A stretch of DNA of 50,786 bases from Terriglobia bacterium (lineage in GTDB: Bacteria; Acidobacteriota; Terriglobia; 20CM-2-55-15), in the NCBI GenBank assembly GCA_036496425.1, contig DASXLG010000024.1:1-50786 (forward strand). The letters run 5' to 3'. A program made the position numbers and the translations under genes. Numbering within the stretch: the first letter of the stretch is position 1; each line of letters opens with the position of its first letter. Below the pieces are notes generated by a model. It was not told where the DNA came from, searched no databases, and saw nothing but the letters and a program-made list of their open reading frames with translations. Shown in pieces: positions 40,030 through 50,786 of the stretch.

Positions 40030-40117
40030 TAAGACCATTGGATCAATGCATCATTGGAAGTTGCTTCATATGAAGAAATGAAGCAACGTCAATTGATGCA
40101 TTGATCCAATGGTCTTA
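40030..40117. repeat. ATTGGATCAATGCATCATTGG palindrome, copy A5
   Basis: An almost perfect 88-base palindrome: TAAGACCATTGGATCAATGC at the left, GCATTGATCCAATGGTCTTA at the right, and an inner GAAGTTGCTTCAT pairing with ATGAAGCAACGTC. It covers the TAA stop of the VWA gene. It lies between convergent genes. Confidence 0.95.
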
Positions 40118-41065
40118 ACTGCCCCCGAGATACCCGGTCTTTGCGCGGATTCTCAGATCGCTCCGACCGGGAACCGCCACTCGCAAGCGATGGAAGCCTG
40201 GGCGCTTCTGGATGTAGTAGCCGAGGTAATACTGCTGGGAGAGTTCCTGGCGAATTTGATTCATGACGGGAGACACCGCCTCGCTTTTCGGCACATACAA
40301 CGTGCGGCCGCCGCTGAGGTCCGACAGCGGCTCCAGGGTGTGCGAGTCCACCAGAATCGGAGAACCGATCGCGATGAAATACAGCAGCACGGCCGAATTC
40401 TGCACTTCCTGAACGACGCGGCCGTGGCCGGCGTTGCTGGCGTTGTCATCACCATCGGTGAAAACAATCAATGCCTTGCGCGGGCGATCCGACCTTTCCA
40501 CTCGTTCCATCGAATACAGCAGGCCGTCGAAGAGAGACGAGGTGCCGAAAGCCTGCACCTTTGTGAGAGCGTCCTCAAGGTCGCGCTGGGGCTGTGAAGA
40601 CGTGTGGACAAGCCGAACATTGGTTCCAAACGAAACGACGAAGTACTCATCGGTTTTAGGCAGAGCCCGCGTGAAATCGCGGATGCCGCGTTTCATAAAC
40701 GGCATGATGTCGACCATACTGCCGCTGCTGTCCATCAACAGTCCGATGGATGAATCGACCTTATCCTGCTTTTCGAAGATCTGGATATCCTGCGGCTGGT
40801 CGTCCTCGTAAACCCGGAAATCGCTCTTGCTCAAGTTGGAAACAAAGTTCCCCTGCGGATCTTTGACGGTGGCGAAAAGGCTGACGAGGTTGACGTCGAC
40901 CTTGAGCGTCTGAGAAGCGAACAGGAAGGAACACAAGAAGCATAAGAGGCACAAGACAATGAAAACCGGCCTGTACCCGTTGCCTCTGCCGTGTGCTATC
41001 GCAAGTTGCAGCATTGGAGGTTTCTGCATTTCAAATTTCAAATGAAGGAACTTCGAATGATGCAA
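40115..41065 (-). CDS. Secreted von Willebrand A domain protein (VWFA-related Acidobacterial type)
   Basis: A 316-residue protein whose body starts with a signal peptide (FIVLCLLCFLCSFLFASQ) and a short VKDPQGNFVSNLSKSDFRVYEDD beta domain. A VWA domain follows with an intact metal site: D-x-S-x-S (DSSGSM), the GTSSLFDGL threonine loop, and the FTDGDDNAS aspartate. This pairing is characteristic of Acidobacteriota proteins. The first ~28 residues of the open frame are encoded by repeat A6, so the true start is uncertain: it may be one of the ATGs in the repeat (such as MQKPPM) or a non-ATG codon after it. VWA domains bind protein partners; the role is unknown. Confidence 0.88.
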   Translation of the reverse strand: MHHSKFLHLKFEMQKPPMLQLAIAHGRGNGYRPVFIVLCLLCFLCSFLFASQTLKVDVNLVSLFATVKDPQGNFVSNLSKSDFRVYEDDQPQDIQIFEKQDKVDSSIGLLMDSSGSMVDIMPFMKRGIRDFTRALPKTDEYFVVSFGTNVRLVHTSSQPQRDLEDALTKVQAFGTSSLFDGLLYSMERVERSDRPRKALIVFTDGDDNASNAGHGRVVQEVQNSAVLLYFIAIGSPILVDSHTLEPLSDLSGGRTLYVPKSEAVSPVMNQIRQELSQQYYLGYYIQKRPGFHRLRVAVPGRSDLRIRAKTGYLGGS

Positions 41066-41073
41066 TATTGCAT
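40998..41073. repeat. ATTGGAAATTGCATCATT palindrome, copy A6, overlapping a gene start
   Basis: Diverged copy: CTATCGCAAGTTGCAGCATT at the left, AATGATGCAATATTGCATA at the right. It overlaps the first ~25 codons of the VWA reading frame and ends 13 bases before the stop of the next gene. Confidence 0.88.
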
Positions 41074-41086
41074 ACGTTTTTTACCA

Positions 41087-44000
41087 TCAGCTCCCGACCT
41101 GCAGTTCTCGATATAGACGGTAAATCGCAGGATTGGTGGCGAAAATTCTGTGCCCTTTTTCCACAACCCGGAGAGCGTCCTTTTTCCGTCCCGCGTTTGT
41201 ATACAGGTTTGCAAGCTTCACATAGACGTCGGGATCGCGATCAAAAGCATACCGCACGACGAACTCATATTCCTTGATCGCATCCTCCGTGTCCTTGCCT
41301 TTTTCATAGACCCGAGCCAACCGGTAGTGCGCCCAGTAAACATACGGGTCGGCATGTAAGGCGGCCTGGAGCGCCTCCCCTCCCTGTTCGGTCTGATCCG
41401 CAGCCAGACGATAATCGCCCAGCATTGCCCAGAAATGGCCGGGCTGCTGAGGCTGGGTCGCCACGTACTTTTCCATCCAATCGCCCGCCTCACTCCAGGA
41501 TTGATCTTTTGCCGCCAGTTCGGCAAGTTTCCTGAAAGGAAGCGGACGTGACGGATCGGCCTTGACGGAGTTTTCGTAATGACGTTTCGCGTCACTGGCA
41601 TTTCCCATCGCGTCGTACAGCAGGCCCGCCAGCTCCTCCGCTTCCCCCCGCAGGGGACTGTCCGGCTTCAGCTGCATGTCGGCCTCTTTCAGAGAGTCCG
41701 CAGCGCGCACAAAGTTTCCGGAATCCATATTCAACTTGGCGATTGCCAGTTGAAGCGATGCAGGCTCCTTTTTGGGAGCCTGCGCCAGACGAGCCATCGC
41801 CTGGTTGGCCAGGTTCGTCCGCTTGAAGACCAGAAACGGTTCGATCATTCCGGAATAGGCGCTCTCCGGGTCGGCCACGGCTCCAGCCGGCAGCAGGCCA
41901 TCCTTCGATTCGTACAGCAGATCGAGATTCAGATCGCGGGTGTCGGTAAAGAGTTGCCGGGGCGCGTGGAATTCCAGCAACGGATGGTCGTCGGTATTGC
42001 GGCGCGCATGAGACGCGAATTTCCGTACAGCATCGCTGGACATTACGTAGTATCCCAGGAGTCCTTCCGGCTGATCGGTGTGAAGGAAATCGCGGAAATC
42101 CCGAACCATGCTGGGATCGGAGCGAACGATGTCCGCCACACGCGACATATCGAGTTTCTGCGGCTGCCGGCTTGCGATGATGATCAAATCGGAATCTGTC
42201 ACCCAGACCGAGACTTCAGGGAACTTCCGCTGAACCTCATACAACACCATCCGCAGATCCTCGGGATCGAGTTCGTAGAGCTGAATCCATTGCGCGAAAA
42301 TTCCGTCCGGTTTGAGGACCTGCGAAGCGCGATCATAAAACTCCGCCGTAAAAAGGCTGGCAACGCCCGCGATCCAGGGATTCGACGGCTCCGAAATGAT
42401 GATGTCGTACTGCTTGCGCGTCGTATTCATGTAATTGCGCGCGTCGTTGAAGATGAGGTGGACTTTCGGATTTTCGTAGCTCTTTCGATTGATCGTCGAA
42501 AACCAGGGAGCGGCGCCATAGACGGCAGGCTCGATTTCAATACAGTCGATGTCTTGAAGCTCCTTGATCGAAGTCACAGCGCCGACGGTCACGCCGGAAC
42601 CGTAGCCGATCACCAGCGCATCCTTCGGATTCGGATGGTAGAAGCCCGGCAACCAGCCCACGGTCAATTGCGTGATCATGTCGTCGCGGTTGGACGCATC
42701 GACTTTGCCGTTCGTCCGCAGAGCGAGGTAGTTCTCTCCCTTGCGGACGGAGATCGTCGCATTGTTGCCTTCCTTGAAGTACACCACGTCCGTGTCCTGA
42801 TAGTTCTCGTCCACGGTGAGCTCCGGCCGTGAACCGAGCGCCTTCGCATAAACCAGGATGCCGCGATCCAGGGAGGCCGGCTTCCAGAACATGCCGCCCC
42901 GCATTGAAACGGTGGCAACCAGCAGAAGGACGGCGGCAATGCCTTGCGCAAACTTCGCCGTTCGGGCTTCCGTGAGCAACAGAAGCGCGATCGCCGAATT
43001 GAAGAACAGGCCTACCAGGATCGTTCGTTCCGTGCCGATAAGGGGCATCAGGACAAATCCGCCGAGCAGCGACCCGATAATCGCGCCCACCGTGTTGATC
43101 GAATAGATATTGCCGATGCTGCGGCCGAGGATGGTGAATTTGCTCGAATACAACTGGCTTGCGATCGGAAAACTCGCCCCCATGCACAGCGTGGCCAGAA
43201 TCATCAGGCCGGCGCAGAGAATGAACTGGATCGTGAGGATTGCCGGGAAAGAATAAAAAAACGCCCGGATCAGCGCCAGCAACGCGTACGGCGCGGCCAG
43301 GTAGCCCAGCAGAAAAACCACGCCGCCGATCGCCACTCCAACCTGCATCAATCCAAGCAGCCGGAGCGTAGCCACGGGCTTGCGCCGGCTGACGATCGAA
43401 CTGCCCAGCGCGATACCGATCAGAAACGTCACCAGCATGATGGAGAAGGCGTAGGTCGAACTGCCGATGATCGCCGAGAGCGCGCGGGTCCACGACACCT
43501 CATACATCATCGAGACAAAACCGGAAACCGCCAGAGTCATCAGCACCAGGCGGTCCGCGGCCGGATTCGAACTGCGGATATCATCCGCTGCCATGGAAAC
43601 AGGCGTCTCCTGTTCGGCAGGACCGGGCCTTCGAGCCGCCTCGTGAATGCGGCTCGACATCCATATCGCGAACACGCCGATGATGACGTTGATGCTCGCA
43701 ATGATGATCGTGGTCCGGATATTTCCGATTCCTGGAATAAGCACAAGCGCCGCCAGCAAGGAACCTGCGGCCGCGCCAAACGTGTTGAGCGCATACAAGA
43801 CGCCGACCTTGCCTTCCACCTCGTCAAGGCGTTCTGTAAAAAAGCGCGTCAGAACGGGCAGAGTGCCGCCCATCAGAAACGTCGGCGTGATCAGAACGAT
43901 GAAGCTGGTTCCGAAGCGGACGATGCCGCCGCCCGCTGGAATCGAAGAAAGGGCCGGAGCCATCGCCCAGTAAAACGTATCCAGCGCCCGGAACACCAGG

Positions 44001-44296
44001 GGCACCAGGGCCGCGGAAATACCGATCCCGATCTCCAGCAGGCCATAGAGCCGCAACGGATTCTGCGTCCGGTCGGCCCGCCGGCCCAGTTTCCAGCTTC
44101 CCAGCGCCAGCCCGGCCATGAACGCGCCAAGCACCGTCGAGATCGCGTGGGACGTGTTCCCGAATACAAGACCGGTCAGGCGCACCCAGATGACTTCGTA
44201 AACCAGGCCGGTGGCGCCGGACAGGAAGAAGATGACATAGAAGATCGAGGTTGAATTCAAGCGTTTGGCAAACATACGGCGGGGATTGTAATGCAA
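41087..44296 (-). CDS. MFS-like / spermidine-synthase-like / TPR fusion membrane protein
   Basis: A 1069-residue three-part protein. Residues about 12-460 contain some 12 hydrophobic spans of an MFS-like transporter region (SGATGLVYEVIWVRLTGLVFG at the start). Residues about 480-740 form a spermidine-synthase-like Rossmann domain: VIGYGSGVTVGAV near 563 (SAM site), CIEIEPAV, NDARNYM near 617, and DIIISEPSNPW near 630. Residues about 820-1069 are TPR repeats. Fused MFS/SpdSyn proteins are common in Acidobacteriota, but their substrates are not established. The PSNPW in place of the usual DSTDP means decarboxy-SAM chemistry cannot be assumed. It stands alone between repeats. Confidence 0.88.
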   Translation of the reverse strand: MHYNPRRMFAKRLNSTSIFYVIFFLSGATGLVYEVIWVRLTGLVFGNTSHAISTVLGAFMAGLALGSWKLGRRADRTQNPLRLYGLLEIGIGISAALVPLVFRALDTFYWAMAPALSSIPAGGGIVRFGTSFIVLITPTFLMGGTLPVLTRFFTERLDEVEGKVGVLYALNTFGAAAGSLLAALVLIPGIGNIRTTIIIASINVIIGVFAIWMSSRIHEAARRPGPAEQETPVSMAADDIRSSNPAADRLVLMTLAVSGFVSMMYEVSWTRALSAIIGSSTYAFSIMLVTFLIGIALGSSIVSRRKPVATLRLLGLMQVGVAIGGVVFLLGYLAAPYALLALIRAFFYSFPAILTIQFILCAGLMILATLCMGASFPIASQLYSSKFTILGRSIGNIYSINTVGAIIGSLLGGFVLMPLIGTERTILVGLFFNSAIALLLLTEARTAKFAQGIAAVLLLVATVSMRGGMFWKPASLDRGILVYAKALGSRPELTVDENYQDTDVVYFKEGNNATISVRKGENYLALRTNGKVDASNRDDMITQLTVGWLPGFYHPNPKDALVIGYGSGVTVGAVTSIKELQDIDCIEIEPAVYGAAPWFSTINRKSYENPKVHLIFNDARNYMNTTRKQYDIIISEPSNPWIAGVASLFTAEFYDRASQVLKPDGIFAQWIQLYELDPEDLRMVLYEVQRKFPEVSVWVTDSDLIIIASRQPQKLDMSRVADIVRSDPSMVRDFRDFLHTDQPEGLLGYYVMSSDAVRKFASHARRNTDDHPLLEFHAPRQLFTDTRDLNLDLLYESKDGLLPAGAVADPESAYSGMIEPFLVFKRTNLANQAMARLAQAPKKEPASLQLAIAKLNMDSGNFVRAADSLKEADMQLKPDSPLRGEAEELAGLLYDAMGNASDAKRHYENSVKADPSRPLPFRKLAELAAKDQSWSEAGDWMEKYVATQPQQPGHFWAMLGDYRLAADQTEQGGEALQAALHADPYVYWAHYRLARVYEKGKDTEDAIKEYEFVVRYAFDRDPDVYVKLANLYTNAGRKKDALRVVEKGHRIFATNPAIYRLYRELQVGS

Positions 44297-44854: not shown

Positions 44855-44858
44855 GGAG

Positions 44859-44906
44859 AAAAAAAGAAAGGGCGGGAAACCTCCATCCTGGAGGTTGCTC
44901 CCGCCC
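44859..44906 (-). terminator. Rho-independent terminator of the kinase/sigma operon
   Basis: On the minus strand GGGCGGGAGCAACCTCC and GGAGGTTTCCCGCCC form a long stem, followed by TTTCTTTTTTT. It is 7 bases past the end of the histidine-kinase gene, so it ends the 47551-44913 operon. Confidence 0.9.
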
Positions 44907-44912
44907 TACAGC

Positions 44913-46016
44913 CTAAAGAGGGAGGCTTATTAGGAAAGTCGTTCCGCGGTCGCTGGTCTGGACGTCGATGGCACCGTGGTGCTCATCCATCACCTGTCTG
45001 GTGATGTAGAGACCGAGTCCCGTACCGCGTTCACCTTTGGTCGTGAAGAAGGGATTAAAAATCTTGTCGATATTCACCCGTGAAATTCCGGGTCCCGTAT
45101 CGGAAATCGCAATTTGAAGCCGGCTGCCGTCGACGCGGGCTGTAATGGATACGCAGCGTCTATCCCGGTCCGCCATAACGTCGGCGGCGTTCTGAAGGAT
45201 ATTGACGACAGCCTGAACCATCTGCCAGCGATCCATCCGGATCATCGGTATTTCCGGTTCAAGCTGGACATCGACATCGACGAACTGGGAACGGGTGTAC
45301 GGCTGGATGAACCGCAGAGCGTCCGAGATGATTTCGGCGATGTCGCACGGTTCGGTCCGTTTTGTCCGCTTTTTGCTGAAGTCGAGCATCCGCTTCGTCA
45401 TCTCCTCGATGCGCCGCGAGGCCCGGTCGATCACTTCGAAGTTGATTCTCAAGGGGTGCCCGGCGGGCAGACTTTCTTCAACAAACTGGAGATGACCGCG
45501 AACGAGCGTGAGCGGATTCGTCACCTCATGAGCAAAACAGGCGGACAGTTCACCGATTGTGATCAAGCGTGAGAAGTGCAGGAGTTCATCTGTACTGAAA
45601 TTGGTTCTGGTCTGGCCCGAACCGGCGTCGATCAGGAGTTCGGCGGCGGCGGGGCCGTATTCCAATAGCCTACCCAGATCGTCAGCAGTGAATGTCCCTG
45701 GCTGGCCGGAATAACCCACAAGCACGCCGATGATGTGGCTGCCCTGCAGGACCGGGGCAGCGATCATCCGGGAATCGTCAACCACGATCGGTCCCCAGTC
45801 CCGCAGCCGCGCCAGGAGGTCGGCGGCCAGGTTGACCGGGGTCTCCGGTTCCGCACCCGCAATCGCCTGAATGCGGATCGAATCCTTTTCCGGGATCGCG
45901 ACCAGGGCATAATCACACTTCAGGAGGTTGCGAACATACAATGCGACTTCCTGATACGGCCCGGGGGAGGCAAGTCCAGATCCTTTGAACTCGACAACCT
46001 TGAAGTTCTCGTTCAT
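44913..46016 (-). CDS. Soluble GAF-type sensor histidine kinase
   Basis: A 367-residue cytosolic histidine kinase. Residues about 20-130 look like a GAF-type sensor (YVRNLLKCDYALVAIPEKD, then PVLQGSHIIGVLVGYSG). HisKA has the H-box AHEVTNPLTL with the phospho-histidine near 163. The ATPase domain has the N-box VVNILQNAADVM, G1 DTGPGIS and G2 GTGLGLYI. All key residues are present. No response regulator is in the operon; its partner may be elsewhere, for example the lone receiver at 4895. It overlaps the ECF gene stop (ATGA). As part of a sigma/anti-sigma operon, it may add a second signal input. Confidence 0.9.
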   Translation of the reverse strand: MNENFKVVEFKGSGLASPGPYQEVALYVRNLLKCDYALVAIPEKDSIRIQAIAGAEPETPVNLAADLLARLRDWGPIVVDDSRMIAAPVLQGSHIIGVLVGYSGQPGTFTADDLGRLLEYGPAAAELLIDAGSGQTRTNFSTDELLHFSRLITIGELSACFAHEVTNPLTLVRGHLQFVEESLPAGHPLRINFEVIDRASRRIEEMTKRMLDFSKKRTKRTEPCDIAEIISDALRFIQPYTRSQFVDVDVQLEPEIPMIRMDRWQMVQAVVNILQNAADVMADRDRRCVSITARVDGSRLQIAISDTGPGISRVNIDKIFNPFFTTKGERGTGLGLYITRQVMDEHHGAIDVQTSDRGTTFLISLPL

Positions 46017-46675
46017 GTCTGAATTCTCTTCCTTAATCTCGCGAGTATAGTTTCGACACCGGACTTCGTCAGTTCGAAGCCCGGGTGCCGGGCGATCTCG
46101 CCCGACTGAAAACCGTCGATGTAGTGAAGTTTGAAAATAAGTGCGTTCCTGCGGGCATTCTTGCGGTCCGGATCGCCTTCAACGATCCGCTCTACATCGA
46201 TCCACGACAGGATGGAGCCAAGCTGGCTCGAGTCGAATTCCGGCGAATCCGTCGACGGCATGCCGCCGAGTTCGGCTGCGCGCGCAGTCTCAATGGGGAC
46301 AACCTGGCCCCGCCGCTTGTCGCTTGCGGCCGCCCGTTGATAGTCCTGAACTACCGATGATGAAATCCGCGCCAGGAAAGCCATGACCGAAAACTCCGTC
46401 GTCCCTCGAAAGCCTCTGAGGATCCGGCCGTCGTGTTGGACGAGCCGCAAATAAACCTCCTGCGCCAGGTCCGGAACCACGTCGGCAGCGTCGTCTTGAA
46501 TTCGCCTCAGACGCATGGCTCGCATCAAATAGAGGAAGATCAGACCTTGAAACCGCTCCTGGAACTTTGACCAGAGGACGCGGTCCGTCAACTTCTCTCC
46601 ACACTCGCGCAGTAGATCAGGAGCGGAAGTTTCGCTGGCCTTCTGCCAGCGAAACCGCCGGATGTTGTCAGACAT
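46013..46675 (-). CDS. ECF-like sigma factor (diverged)
   Basis: A 220-residue sigma-70-family protein. The best region 2 match is VPDLAQEVYLRLVQHDGR with VMAFLARISSSVVQDYQR. Region 4 is weaker but present: NALIFKLHYIDGFQSGEIA, then FELTKSGVETILARLRKRI. The linker between them is longer than usual. It starts 3 bases after the anti-sigma stop and overlaps the kinase start (ATGA). The divergent promoter duplication at 47569-47665 is a likely target, as ECF factors often regulate their own operon. Confidence 0.82.
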   Translation of the reverse strand: MSDNIRRFRWQKASETSAPDLLRECGEKLTDRVLWSKFQERFQGLIFLYLMRAMRLRRIQDDAADVVPDLAQEVYLRLVQHDGRILRGFRGTTEFSVMAFLARISSSVVQDYQRAAASDKRRGQVVPIETARAAELGGMPSTDSPEFDSSQLGSILSWIDVERIVEGDPDRKNARRNALIFKLHYIDGFQSGEIARHPGFELTKSGVETILARLRKRIQT

Positions 46676-46678
46676 ATT

Positions 46679-47551
46679 TCAGCGACTTAATCCTTGAAGC
46701 CGTCCTTGCGCTTCCATAGCCCAGTCCGATCGGGGATCCAGAGCCAGGTAGCGCTTCCATTGCGTTTCAGCCATCACGGGCTGGTTGGTACGCTCATAAA
46801 ACAACGCCAGATTGAACACTGCGGCGGCAAATGCCGGATCCTGATCCAGTGCGCGGCGTAATTCTTTTCCAGATTGCTCCAACTTCATCGGATCGCCGCT
46901 TTCCAGATACGCAACCCCCAGATCATTGTGCACGGCCGCCGTGGCCCCTACCTCCCGGGCGGCAATCTCCAGATATGGGATTGCCTTTGGAAAGTCCTTC
47001 TGAAGAAGGTAGAAACGCCCCATCTGATGACTGTCGGCTCCACGACGAGTCATCTCACCGGCAAGAAGCCCGTAGGAAACGCCCGGATCCTCGGGACCGC
47101 GAGTCCGGGCCATCGGAACGTGCGGTTCATCGGCCAGACGCGACTCGAATGGCCGCTGATGAGTCAGTAACAGCTCGACGACTTCGCTTGCCGAGTTGGA
47201 CTCTGCCTGGCGCTCCAGGACAAACCGGACGGAAAGCACTCCGACAATAAGGACCGCTGCAACTCCGATGAACCCCATGAACCGGGAAGGAAATATCCCC
47301 GCGCCGCGGGAAAGCCGCCCGCTGGATTTCTTCCGATCCCACTCAGCAGTAATGACTTGGAGCTTTTGAGTCTCTTCTGCGGCTACTTCTTCGTCCAACA
47401 GCCGCATGAAGAAACCCAACCTGTCCCGGCAGTCATCGCAGGAGATCAGATGGCCTTCACTTGCGGCCTTAAGTGCTGGATCTAGAACGCCTTCCAGGTA
47501 TTCGGTTAAGGTCTCTTCAGCGATGCACTGGCCGTGTTCATTACCTCTCAC
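46679..47551 (-). CDS. Zinc-finger anti-sigma factor with C-terminal TPR repeats
   Basis: A 290-residue membrane protein. The zf-HC2 motif (H-x3-C-x2-C) is in SEGHLISCDDCRDRLG near residue 33-41. One membrane span is at about 92-110 (FIGVAAVLIVGVLSV). The periplasmic part of about 175 residues contains TPR helices (AAVHNDLGVAYLESGDP, then PAFAAAVFNLALFYERTN). GTG start, with GGAGGG upstream. The TPR half may bind a periplasmic partner and so sense a signal. It lies first in the operon, before the sigma factor, and is divergent from the Tat-protein/CHAT genes. Confidence 0.85.
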   Translation of the reverse strand: MRGNEHGQCIAEETLTEYLEGVLDPALKAASEGHLISCDDCRDRLGFFMRLLDEEVAAEETQKLQVITAEWDRKKSSGRLSRGAGIFPSRFMGFIGVAAVLIVGVLSVRFVLERQAESNSASEVVELLLTHQRPFESRLADEPHVPMARTRGPEDPGVSYGLLAGEMTRRGADSHQMGRFYLLQKDFPKAIPYLEIAAREVGATAAVHNDLGVAYLESGDPMKLEQSGKELRRALDQDPAFAAAVFNLALFYERTNQPVMAETQWKRYLALDPRSDWAMEAQGRLQGLSR

Positions 47552-47568
47552 CTATTTACCCTCCTACT

Positions 47569-47665
47569 AGAAGAAGACGTAATCCGCGTGCGCCAACACG
47601 CAAAAAATTTTTCAAATTTAAAAAAATTATTTGAATGTCGGGGCTAAGGAATTACGTCTTCTTAA
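47569..47665. promoter_or_regulatory. Duplicated, divergently oriented promoter-like sequence
   Basis: Two 37-base sequences face outward, one per strand. The final 13 bases are identical (ATTACGTCTTCTT), and the 24 bases before them match at 14 positions with no gap, including TTTG, TGT-x-GG and GC. The CGTC inside suits an ECF -10 element and TGT-x-GG a -35 element 13 bases upstream. The left copy points toward the anti-sigma operon and the right toward the Tat-protein gene. An AT-rich stretch (47601-47632) separates them. Recognition by the local sigma factor is inferred. Confidence 0.65.
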
Positions 47666-47746
47666 GTAAATGGGGTTTTTCCGCCACTGGGCTGAAAACC
47701 GGAAGTCGCTGTTCAAACCTAAAAACAACTAAAGAAGGAGTCCCAG

Positions 47747-48568
47747 ATGAAACGAATGAATCGACGTGAATTTATCGGTGTTGTCGCCGGCGCCGGCGCT
47801 ATGTCCATGGCAATTCCAGCACTTGCATCCACCTCTGCAGTAGATACCGCTGGGGCAGATATAACTTCTCTATATGTTAAAGGCCTGGTCATGGTCGACC
47901 TCGGAAACCCGGAAGTGATCCGGCTCGGTTTTCCGAAGGCCCCCGGTCACAAAGCTACATTGTCTGTGGTACCGCAAGTTGGAGAAAAAAGGATTCTCGC
48001 TATTAAAGGAAAAGGCGCCATCGATGCTCCCGGCGTTGCGTCCGCCGACCCGAAGATCGTAGCGCCGGAATTGATCCGCATGAAGGAGTTCTACGGGAAC
48101 GACGTCAAATCTCACATCGATCAATGCCCCGGATTGATTTCAATTCCGCGGAATGCCATTCGATCTATAACGACGTCGGAAGTGACGCCGGTCCGTTATA
48201 CCTTCGTCCGCGCCGACAACGGCCAGGAAGTGACATCATTCCGACCGCGCCAGGTTGCGGATGCCCTGAGGATTGATTTATCATCGGCCGGCACGTTGAA
48301 ACTGGACGAAGGCAAGGTCAATATTCCGCTCCAGACAACCCGTGAGCTGCGGGTGGAATATACCGCGGAAAGAATGGACTCTACGGACCCGTTCGCCGAT
48401 CACTTCCACCACTATTTCCCGTACGTCGAGCGGCCAGCGGCGCTTGATTTCGACGTTGTCCCGAGGAAAGTCGGTGCGACCGGCGATCCGGCGCCGACGC
48501 CGCACGCCGGCCATCATTTCATGATGCTTGACGCCTGGATCATGTGCAGTCTGGTTGCAGTTCCCTAG
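47747..48568 (+). CDS. Tat-exported protein of unknown function
   Basis: A 273-residue protein with AAGGAG six bases before the ATG. The signal peptide has the twin-arginine motif (MNRREFIG), a short hydrophobic core and an A-x-A-like site (ALAST). The mature part (about 30-273) has no motif I recognise. It has a His/Pro-rich patch near 220-265 (FADHFHHYFPYVE, PHAGHHFMML) that could bind a metal. The Tat route suggests it folds before export. It is followed closely by the CHAT gene and lies under the divergent promoter shared with the sigma operon. Confidence 0.82.
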   Translation: MKRMNRREFIGVVAGAGAMSMAIPALASTSAVDTAGADITSLYVKGLVMVDLGNPEVIRLGFPKAPGHKATLSVVPQVGEKRILAIKGKGAIDAPGVASADPKIVAPELIRMKEFYGNDVKSHIDQCPGLISIPRNAIRSITTSEVTPVRYTFVRADNGQEVTSFRPRQVADALRIDLSSAGTLKLDEGKVNIPLQTTRELRVEYTAERMDSTDPFADHFHHYFPYVERPAALDFDVVPRKVGATGDPAPTPHAGHHFMMLDAWIMCSLVAVP

Positions 48569-48595
48569 TTGAACGGCCCGGGCGAAGGAGGAGAC

Positions 48596-50786
48596 ATTAC
48601 GTCATTCGCGAAGCGAGGCAGGTCCGCGGGTTTCATCGCCGCTCTGATCGTGCTCTGTTTCGGTTCTCTTGGCGTTTTCTTCTTCGCCCGGGATGCCTAC
48701 TCCGGCAATCAGATACACCAACTGATCGACGCGGCATACAGCGGCCAGCGGCCGGGCGGCGGACGTTTGTCCGGAACCCCCTACGCACCGCTTCTCCATC
48801 AAGCATCCGCGGCGCAGGAGCTTGGAAAAGCGCAGCTTCTTCTCCTCCAGCAGCCGCGCTTGAAAAACCATCAAACGCTTCAGGGTCTGCTCTATCTGGC
48901 CGCTGGAAACTGGCAGAAGTTCGTCGAGTCGACCAACCAAGCCGATCCTAAAACCTCCGGCAATGCCGGGGCGCTGAACAATCTCGGCGCCAGCTTCCTT
49001 GCACTGGCCGGAAACGATCCGGCGTTTCTTTTGAAAGCCCAGGACGCTTTTGAGAGCGCCCTGAAGTCCGACCCGAAAGCCGTTGAACCCCGCTTCAATC
49101 TCGTCGTCCTCTTTCGCAAGCTGCGATTCCACAATCTTGCAGAAAACGCCCTGCATGCGTATGCCGGGCGCGACGAAAAGTCGGACTGGTACCACGAGCT
49201 CGCGAATCCGGAACATATCGATGAAGGCGGTATTGTCGACCAGCTGAGAACGGCCGTGGAATCGAACAACCTGGTCGAAGCCGAACGGTTGTTCGACGAC
49301 AATCCCGAACTCTGCCGCCGCGTCGCCATGCAATACGCCACTTCGGACGAGGAAGAATCATCGGCCTTACTGCATTTTATCGCTTCTCAAATGGAGCGCC
49401 GTTATGGCGACCGGACAATTTCAGCGATGCTTGCGCCGCTCTTTAGCGACTCAAAGGATCGCACTGTTGAAATAAGAAAGGATGTCAAAGCAGGCGCCGA
49501 TGCATATTTAGCGGAAAATTATCCCGCGAGCCTCGAAGCTTATACTCATGCCAAACAACTGGCGCTTCAGACGGATTCGGTCTTCGACCGTCTCTGGATC
49601 GACTTGAACCTCGTGGACACTTTGATCCGGCTGGCCCGGTTTGACGAGGCAAAACAGTCGCTCGAACACCTGGTCACAATATCCAGGAAGGAACGTTTTA
49701 TCTGGCTCGCCGCGCGCGGGCTGTCGATATACGGATCGACCGTCAGATTAACGCCGAGCTATGACAATATGATCAACCTCCTGACGGAAGCGAATCAGAG
49801 TTTCCTCGATCTCGACGCTCCGCATGATCGGATCCGCGTGCTGTATTATCTCGCCGCCTATCGATATGCCGCGGGAGACCAGGACGGAGCCTTGAGTCTT
49901 GCCCTTGAATGTTTATGCCTGACAAACGATGATGCTGCCTCCGCCTCAAAAATCGCCACTCTGGACTGGTTGATCGGCTCTATTCTTTACCGCCACGGCA
50001 TGGCCGAAAAGGCCATTCTCTTTGCCAATGAATCCGTCGCCCGCAGCCATGAATCTGCCGGAATCGAATTTACGACGGCGTCGACGCTGTCCGATCTTTA
50101 CGAATCGATGTCTCAACACGACCAGGCGGATCGATACCTCAAGGTGGCCGAAGACGCATTCAAGAAAGTTCCCGATGGATTTGACCGCGATAAAGGCGCC
50201 CTCTGGCTCGGCATCGTGAAAGCCAGAAGTGAAATCCACCGGAAGCAATTCAATCAGGCGGAGGCCGTGCTGCAGGAGAATCTTCGAATCTCGTCGCAGC
50301 TGCCGTTCAATGCCTCGACGCATCTGTCCCAATCTCTGATGCTGCTGGCGCAGGTTTACGCAGACACCGGCCGCACCAGCGAAGCATCGAAGAAATATGA
50401 TGAGGCTATCCAGGTCGTCGAGGATGACGACCAGTACCTCAAGTCCGAAAGCCTGCGGGTCAAATTCGACGATTCGCGCCGCGAATTGTACGACTCGGCG
50501 ATCGAATTTGCATTCGATCAAGGCAACCCGGACGCCGCATGGGTTTATCTTCAGAAATATCGCGCCAAGCTTTTCCTCGAATTTCTGGCTGAATTCAACC
50601 CCGATATCGAACAGACCCGGGCAAATCCCGACCCCTCCAGCACTCAGCACCGCATACCGAAGGACTCACAAATTCTCGAATATGCCTTGCTCAAGGACCG
50701 GCTGTTGATCTGGGTTATGACAGACTCGCTGTTCACTGTGCGCAGCGTTCCGGTCAAACGGGACGAGGTCGAGGCACAAGTCGAGG
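48596..50786 (+). CDS. Membrane-anchored TPR-CHAT protein (3' end beyond window)
   Basis: At least 730 residues, running off the right edge. A membrane span (GFIAALIVLCFGSLGVFFFA) at about 11-30 precedes a long helical TPR region (about 80-660: ALNNLGASFLALAG, AYLAENYPASLEAY, RVLYYLAAYRYAAGD and more). From about 675, the opening of a CHAT caspase-like domain appears: SQILEYALLKDRLLIWVMT. The catalytic His and Cys would lie off the edge. I suggest an ATT start because GAAGGAGGAG is 3-6 bases upstream and no ATG is near; TTG 48569 is in-frame but lacks such a site. CHAT proteases act in signalled proteolysis or defence in some bacteria. It probably shares an operon with the Tat gene. Confidence 0.85.
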   Translation, partial: MTSFAKRGRSAGFIAALIVLCFGSLGVFFFARDAYSGNQIHQLIDAAYSGQRPGGGRLSGTPYAPLLHQASAAQELGKAQLLLLQQPRLKNHQTLQGLLYLAAGNWQKFVESTNQADPKTSGNAGALNNLGASFLALAGNDPAFLLKAQDAFESALKSDPKAVEPRFNLVVLFRKLRFHNLAENALHAYAGRDEKSDWYHELANPEHIDEGGIVDQLRTAVESNNLVEAERLFDDNPELCRRVAMQYATSDEEESSALLHFIASQMERRYGDRTISAMLAPLFSDSKDRTVEIRKDVKAGADAYLAENYPASLEAYTHAKQLALQTDSVFDRLWIDLNLVDTLIRLARFDEAKQSLEHLVTISRKERFIWLAARGLSIYGSTVRLTPSYDNMINLLTEANQSFLDLDAPHDRIRVLYYLAAYRYAAGDQDGALSLALECLCLTNDDAASASKIATLDWLIGSILYRHGMAEKAILFANESVARSHESAGIEFTTASTLSDLYESMSQHDQADRYLKVAEDAFKKVPDGFDRDKGALWLGIVKARSEIHRKQFNQAEAVLQENLRISSQLPFNASTHLSQSLMLLAQVYADTGRTSEASKKYDEAIQVVEDDDQYLKSESLRVKFDDSRRELYDSAIEFAFDQGNPDAAWVYLQKYRAKLFLEFLAEFNPDIEQTRANPDPSSTQHRIPKDSQILEYALLKDRLLIWVMTDSLFTVRSVPVKRDEVEAQVE

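Follow-up and report, generated by a model that had tools for sequence, protein, structure and literature searches.

A split variant of the DdvA/DdvS-type sigma factor module with a TPR-CHAT membrane protein in Acidobacteriota

What connects an ECF sigma factor and its membrane-bound inhibitor with a caspase-like CHAT protein encoded on the other side of a shared control region? The question is raised by one end of a 50,786-nucleotide stretch of DNA (the window), which is the whole of contig C24 in a 6.16-Mb Acidobacteriota genome (G000) and in which the initial annotation had placed five genes as a possible new system. All five genes were found in their places, overlapping or abutting. The leftward operon starts with the gene of an anti-sigma factor that combines a zf-HC2-like motif, a transmembrane helix (TM) and an extracytoplasmic TPR half (46679 to 47551, minus strand). 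It is followed after 3 nt by SIG, encoding a divergent ECF-family sigma factor (46013 to 46675, minus strand), and by HK, encoding a soluble HisKA/HATPase_c histidine kinase with a weakly GAF-like N terminus (44913 to 46016, minus strand); SIG and HK overlap by ATGA, with the kinase start lying over the sigma stop codon. At the HK end, the operon closes with an intrinsic terminator (44858 to 44906, minus strand), a hairpin at 44870 to 44906 followed by a T-run on the minus strand, with an MFE of −30.1 kcal/mol (z −4.79) and 0 of 200 shuffles as stable. In the rightward operon, the gene of an exported protein with a Tat signal (MNRREF), here called TAT (47747 to 48568, plus strand), is followed directly after its stop codon by the gene of a predicted membrane-anchored TPR-CHAT protease (48569 to 50786, plus strand), which is open at the contig end and encodes the first 739 of 1026 amino acids in the window.

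The CHAT gene continues, in frame, on contig C145 of the same genome (positions 1 to 874), which has an 11-bp overlap with the last bases of the window. The joined protein of 1026 amino acids contains HYAGHS (H881, H885) and SSC (C931), and its C145 part matches PF12770 with an E value of 1.5e-53. The catalytic His-Cys pair, for which the initial annotation had pointed to the adjoining contig, is therefore present, with H885 and C931 as the predicted residues. The 23 Acidobacteriota CHAT domains examined all retain His and Cys, and many of these domains share only 20-30% identity. Judged by its sequence, the window's protein has the CHAT peptidase (PF12770) fold with an intact predicted His-Cys dyad; its predicted TM spans residues 22-40 and is accompanied by a juxtamembrane/TPR segment like that of the anti-sigma factor. 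Translation may begin at the TTG at 48569 or at a rare start codon farther on, after GGAGGAG at ~48587; the TM is unaffected by the choice.

The anti-sigma factor carries a CHCC/zf-HC2-type zinc finger with invariant C9, H34, C38 and C41 (numbered from the GTG start), for which the zf-HC2 match is present, below threshold. A single TM is predicted at residues 94-112, with the TPR half outside the cytoplasm. This extracytoplasmic half is homologous to the N terminus of the CHAT protein (BLAST E of ~1e-12 in the window pair, repeated in relatives). A profile of it matched CHAT N termini with E values of 6e-15 to 3e-10 and gave E values of at least 0.036 for the remaining TPR and CHAT proteins encoded in the genome. 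Because of this homology, the split pair seems to have arisen from a fused protein by duplication and subsequent division, with the zinc finger retained in one copy and the protease in the other, or else by the reverse history. Since the TM/TPR segment is homologous in both proteins, it is also plausible that they form a heterodimer through it. The initial annotation had suggested that the two proteins meet at the membrane, which we judge likely; the homology of their segments was absent from it.

Is this a new system? An anti-sigma factor with the same TPR-CHAT architecture is already known, the transmembrane protein DdvA of Myxococcus xanthus, which has a solved structure (PDB 8rot and 8rw5, with 8rlz also listed for DdvA/DdvS; Bernal-Bernal 2018, 2024, cited in PMC12288465). 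A full model of the CHAT protein of a relative, G003 (pLDDT 84), had DdvA as its best PDB match (Foldseek E 1.5e-17). With 828 aligned residues between positions 42 and 1016 of the model (Z 22.3), DdvA also gave the longest alignment; Csx29 and separase reached a higher Z (up to 32) over shorter stretches, mainly in the TPR-CHAT part. In sequence comparisons, the N terminus of the CHAT protein is matched by DdvA residues 84-289 and its CHAT domain by residues 834-978 (E 4.8e-15, the best of the PDB), and residues 9-276 are collinear with the whole anti-sigma factor (E 5.4e-11). Both systems have an ECF sigma factor, a zinc-finger cytoplasmic domain, a single TM and extracytoplasmic TPRs followed by CHAT. 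However, the zinc finger and TPR-CHAT form one chain in DdvA and are divided in the window and its family f1 between two proteins, both with the TM/TPR segment, and the window unit adds the Tat protein and the kinase. Because the zinc finger and TPR-CHAT lie in two genes, the unit is a split variant of the DdvA/DdvS-type module and not a plain member of it; with TAT and the kinase as lineage-specific additions, it represents no new kind of system, and earlier mention of these Acidobacteriota loci is possible.

The active sites differ as well: the Acidobacteriota CHATs have the first His of the HxAxH motif and a C-terminal HPYYW.F strand, and neither is present in the aligned DdvA sequence. The 2024 structure paper reportedly describes DdvA dimers in which the incomplete His-Cys site faces the dimer interface, and it is said to put forward autoproteolysis in trans followed by RseP, proteolysis of DdvA being only proposed. 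The absence of this His and of the strand from DdvA means that activity may be dispensable in the family. The CHAT protein could then be a catalytically unimportant sensor or scaffold that competes with or clamps the anti-sigma factor, and a ligand would shift sequestration without proteolysis; the homologous segment in both proteins and the nature of TPRs as binding modules agree with such a role. However, the retention of His and Cys throughout the divergent Acidobacteriota domains is hard to explain without catalysis, and we consider a CHAT protein that acts without catalysis distinctly unlikely.

The sigma factor links the window to further loci. SIG matches TIGR02937 with 38.6 bits (E 7.9e-10), just under the cutoff of 42.9, and its profile matches RpoE/SigH structures at 1e-7. 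With this profile (A1), relatives were found in 46 of 396 Acidobacteriota genomes. A CHAT gene is present in 19 of the 36 sigma-relative loci examined outside f1, in 18 of them on the same strand and just downstream. Thirteen of these loci encode one fused zinc-finger/TM/TPR/CHAT protein of 1140-1320 amino acids; anti-sigma factor and CHAT are separate genes in five or six, one of which (L121) could be a fused gene broken by a frameshift. No CHAT was detectable near the other 17 sigma relatives, and therefore, the protease is not universal. The motif H-x3-5-C-x2-C stands N-terminal of the predicted TM in 13/13 fused proteins compared to 10/241 control ORFs; weak zf-HC2 matches were obtained in 7 of 10 fused proteins tested and a Pfam CHAT domain at the C terminus in 4 of 4. 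Fused and split forms each tend to group together on the tree of sigma factors, yet neither is a single clade, and the state changed at least once (three times by parsimony). Genes in the relatives' loci are longest-ORF calls, some of which give too long a start to the fused protein (L129). A contig scan with a CHAT alignment, whose N-terminal patterns are poor, returned three loci, of which only one had not been known before. Sampling was deep in one phylum and reached other phyla through plasmids, on none of which the sigma factor was found. Plasmid relatives of the fused protein were rejected as sigma modules and are ordinary TPR-CHATs: two Burkholderiaceae loci examined are without such a sigma factor, one of them beside type VI secretion genes, and a Gemmatirosa locus gave no sigma match.

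The fused proteins also bear on topology. Because their zinc finger must meet the sigma factor in the cytoplasm and one TM precedes the TPRs, the TPR-CHAT part is predicted to be external to the cytoplasmic membrane. For the f1 CHAT proteins, positive-inside counts by themselves leave the orientation undecided, and we carry it over from the fused proteins. From the observed anatomy, homology, fusion and splitting, intact active site and shared promoters, we propose, with somewhat better than even confidence, that the window encodes a split transmembrane sigma switch of the DdvA/DdvS kind, in which we infer the pairing, the cleavage, the signal and the roles of the Tat protein and the kinase. 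In this model, the anti-sigma factor would hold the ECF sigma factor in the cytoplasm by its CHCC zinc-finger domain, cross the membrane once and expose a short TPR domain outside. Its TPR-CHAT partner has the same TM/juxtamembrane/TPR segment, which leads into a long TPR sensor and then a complete caspase-like domain, both predicted outside, and the two would pair through the common segment, much as two DdvA chains pair with each other. When the TPR sensor binds a ligand or an envelope signal, possibly together with the Tat-exported protein from the same mRNA, CHAT would be turned on and would cut the extracytoplasmic part of the anti-sigma factor, and a site-2 (M50) protease would complete the cleavage and free the sigma factor. 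M50 site-2 proteases are present in the genome. Free sigma would induce both divergent operons, giving positive feedback and a renewed brake, and also a small regulon, in which a cyclic-nucleotide-binding protein is joined in a relative by a C39-family peptidase lipoprotein. The proposed sequence resembles that of RseA/DegS/RseP (E. coli sigmaE), in that an extracytoplasmic cut of a membrane anti-sigma factor would free an ECF sigma factor, but a caspase-like CHAT membrane partner or fused domain would stand in the place of DegS.

Within f1, the divergent kinase-sigma-antisigma/TAT-CHAT order recurs in G001, G004, G006, G008 and G009, in some of which a contig end truncates CHAT or TAT. A TAT-CHAT remnant stands at a contig start in G003, and G002 has a divergent copy with an internal stop in TAT and a different, PAS-like kinase. 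The gene order is conserved far above chance and found in at least five relatives, and the initial view of the five genes as one functional unit holds; neither of the two outcomes that the initial annotation had named as refuting it, a gene order confined to this genome or a CHAT domain without the His-Cys pair, was observed. Two of its descriptions were too strong. The kinase had been called a GAF kinase, but GAF_3 scores 17.3 bits against a cutoff of 27, and the kinases of the f1 relatives match over the kinase core only (54-65% identity). Likewise, the Tat protein had been described as His-rich, although only 8 of its 273 residues are His, with partly conserved HFHHYF and GHHF clusters. TAT was not found outside f1 among the 396 Acidobacteriota genomes and is therefore lineage-specific; within f1, it was not found in G005, G007 and G010. 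It had no Pfam, NCBIfam, PADLOC, PDB-sequence or fold match, and its predicted structure is all-beta; a resemblance to EapH1-type domains was rejected, since a Z of only 2.1-2.4 is not meaningful. TAT may be a ligand, an inhibitor or a second substrate of the CHAT system. A kinase adjoining the sigma factor was not seen in other families, except for a larger membrane kinase gene beside the sigma gene at one locus (L132), and the window's kinase may modulate the sigma factor or be a passenger.

Two head-on TGTT-N15-CGTCTTCT elements stand in the 195 bp that separate the two operons. One is the predicted sigma-type promoter of the sigma operon (47567 to 47598, minus strand), which is conserved in relatives, and the other, in the form TTGAATGTC-N15-CGTCTTCT, is that of the TAT-CHAT operon (47631 to 47662, plus strand). 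Elements and spacing are conserved in relatives, and the sequence between them varies. The form common to both divergent operons is TTGAATGTT-N~16-GTCTTCT. A search of 11 family genomes with the exact pattern TTGAANGNTTN{15,16}GTCTTCT gave 8 matches, compared to 0 for the reversed control and a chance expectation of ~0.2 estimated from base counts. Five of the 8 lie at the divergent site (in G001, G006 and G009). Two others precede small cyclic-nucleotide-binding genes, one in G000 (C379) and one in G006, which are 43% identical to each other, and the last precedes a gene of a C39-family peptidase lipoprotein in G001; the unlinked regulon predicted by this search thus consists of the cNMP-binding and C39 genes only. 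The pattern was absent from G005, G007 and G010, the genomes in which TAT was not found. Another exact match of the short motif (C125) was dismissed as a promoter, as it lies inside an ORF, and most one-mismatch matches were set aside as chance, their number being equal to that of the control. The simplest reading of these sequences is that the motif is the promoter of the cognate sigma factor and that both operons are autoregulated.

A common promoter also allows the protease to be the output of the switch. The sigma factor and its inhibitor would then sense stress by themselves and induce an executioner protease that cuts the co-expressed TAT, much as CHAT or caspase-like proteases activate effectors encoded nearby, or other envelope proteins. 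Caspase-like proteases are often encoded beside their own substrates, and indeed, the TAT and CHAT genes abut or overlap behind one sigma-type promoter, and TAT occurs only with the module. However, the thirteen fused loci have CHAT within the anti-sigma polypeptide and no TAT gene, and therefore, CHAT belongs with the anti-sigma factor in the conserved core function. We regard CHAT as an output as rather unlikely and retain the model in which it acts on the sigma inhibitor.

The initial annotation had not recognised the pairing of CHAT with an ECF sigma factor, a TPR anti-sigma factor and a Tat protein as a described one. In Craspase (Csx29, a TPR-CHAT protease, with Csx30 and CASP-sigma), a CHAT protease already cuts an ECF-sigma inhibitor (PMC10028731). 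Likeness extends to positive autoregulation of the locus and to the fold (Z ~30). However, Craspase is cytoplasmic, RNA-guided by Cas7-11 and without a TM, Csx30 is not a zinc-finger membrane anti-sigma factor, and none of the window's five genes matches a cas gene. DdvS/DdvA, as an ECF sigma/anti-sigma pair, controls an antiphage CBASS-CRISPR island (PMC12288465; PMC4374960), whereas no CBASS/CRISPR island or other link to a defence island was found next to the relatives' loci here; flanking ORFs of 19 of them are mostly housekeeping genes with scattered PADLOC matches. The antiviral role of DdvS is therefore not to be transferred.

ECF54 sigma factors likewise adjoin CHAT genes; they have CHAT, subtilase and carboxypeptidase neighbours and no reported anti-sigma factor (PMC8999054). 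If the window's sigma factor were of this kind, CHAT or another protease would cut it directly. A similar locus does exist in the same genome, on C288, but its CHAT is soluble and lacks a TM, and it has a subtilase and a different sigma factor, whereas the window's sigma factor adjoins a membrane anti-sigma factor homologous to the CHAT protein, and CHAT is predicted outside the membrane, away from sigma. Direct cleavage of sigma is, in our view, highly improbable.

For CHAT anti-sigma factors of the DdvA type, a single solved protein is known, and the self-cleavage proposed for it is difficult to test, as the inhibitor and the protease share one polypeptide. The Acidobacteriota have fused and naturally split forms, and the split one combines a complete active site with a defined promoter and a predicted regulon of few genes. 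Since its parts are separable, whether an extracytoplasmic caspase-like protease fires an ECF sigma factor becomes simply testable. This also marks the module as a signalling device of general use in a phylum dominant in soil and not as an accessory of CRISPR. Possible, but on the whole doubtful, is a more far-reaching reading of the naturally split pair, in which a membrane caspase-like enzyme would recognise the sigma inhibitor through the duplicated TM/TPR segment, with TAT as a ligand or second substrate; this would amount to an extracytoplasmic caspase cascade controlling transcription outside CRISPR.

Downstream of the CHAT gene on C145 are a cyclic-nucleotide-binding gene and an AI-2E-type transporter gene.

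Adjoining the kinase end of the module (window 40115-44296) are genes for a spermidine-synthase-like membrane protein of 1069 aa with C-terminal TPRs and for a VWFA-like protein, and both are syntenic in several relatives (L020, L022, L025, and L026; identity, 46 to 83%). The CHAT gene, which continues onto a second contig of the source genome (G000:C145, L066), is followed there by a cyclic-nucleotide-binding gene and a gene for an AI-2E-type permease (L066:891-2463), and the same pair recurs in the relative G008, about 2 kb past CHAT (L022:14202-15759). Within the module, the Tat-protein gene is disrupted by a frame break in G001 (L026:9452-10181) and by an in-frame TAA in G002 (L024:485-1180), with the adjoining genes open in both; sequence error or decay could be the cause.

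The source genome has a second, distinct ECF-CHAT locus on G000:C288 (L071:9160-14533), which encodes an ECF sigma factor, a soluble TPR-CHAT protein starting 3 nt past the sigma gene, a small HxxxCxxC protein, and a secreted subtilase; this locus resembles the published ECF54 context (PMC8999054). Another acidobacteriotal genome has a split sigma/anti-sigma/CHAT locus (L106:11210-13828) with a TOTE conflict-system primase gene nearby. Locus L132:7326-10271 carries a sigma-gene relative whose immediate downstream neighbor is a large membrane histidine kinase gene, in place of an anti-sigma or CHAT gene.
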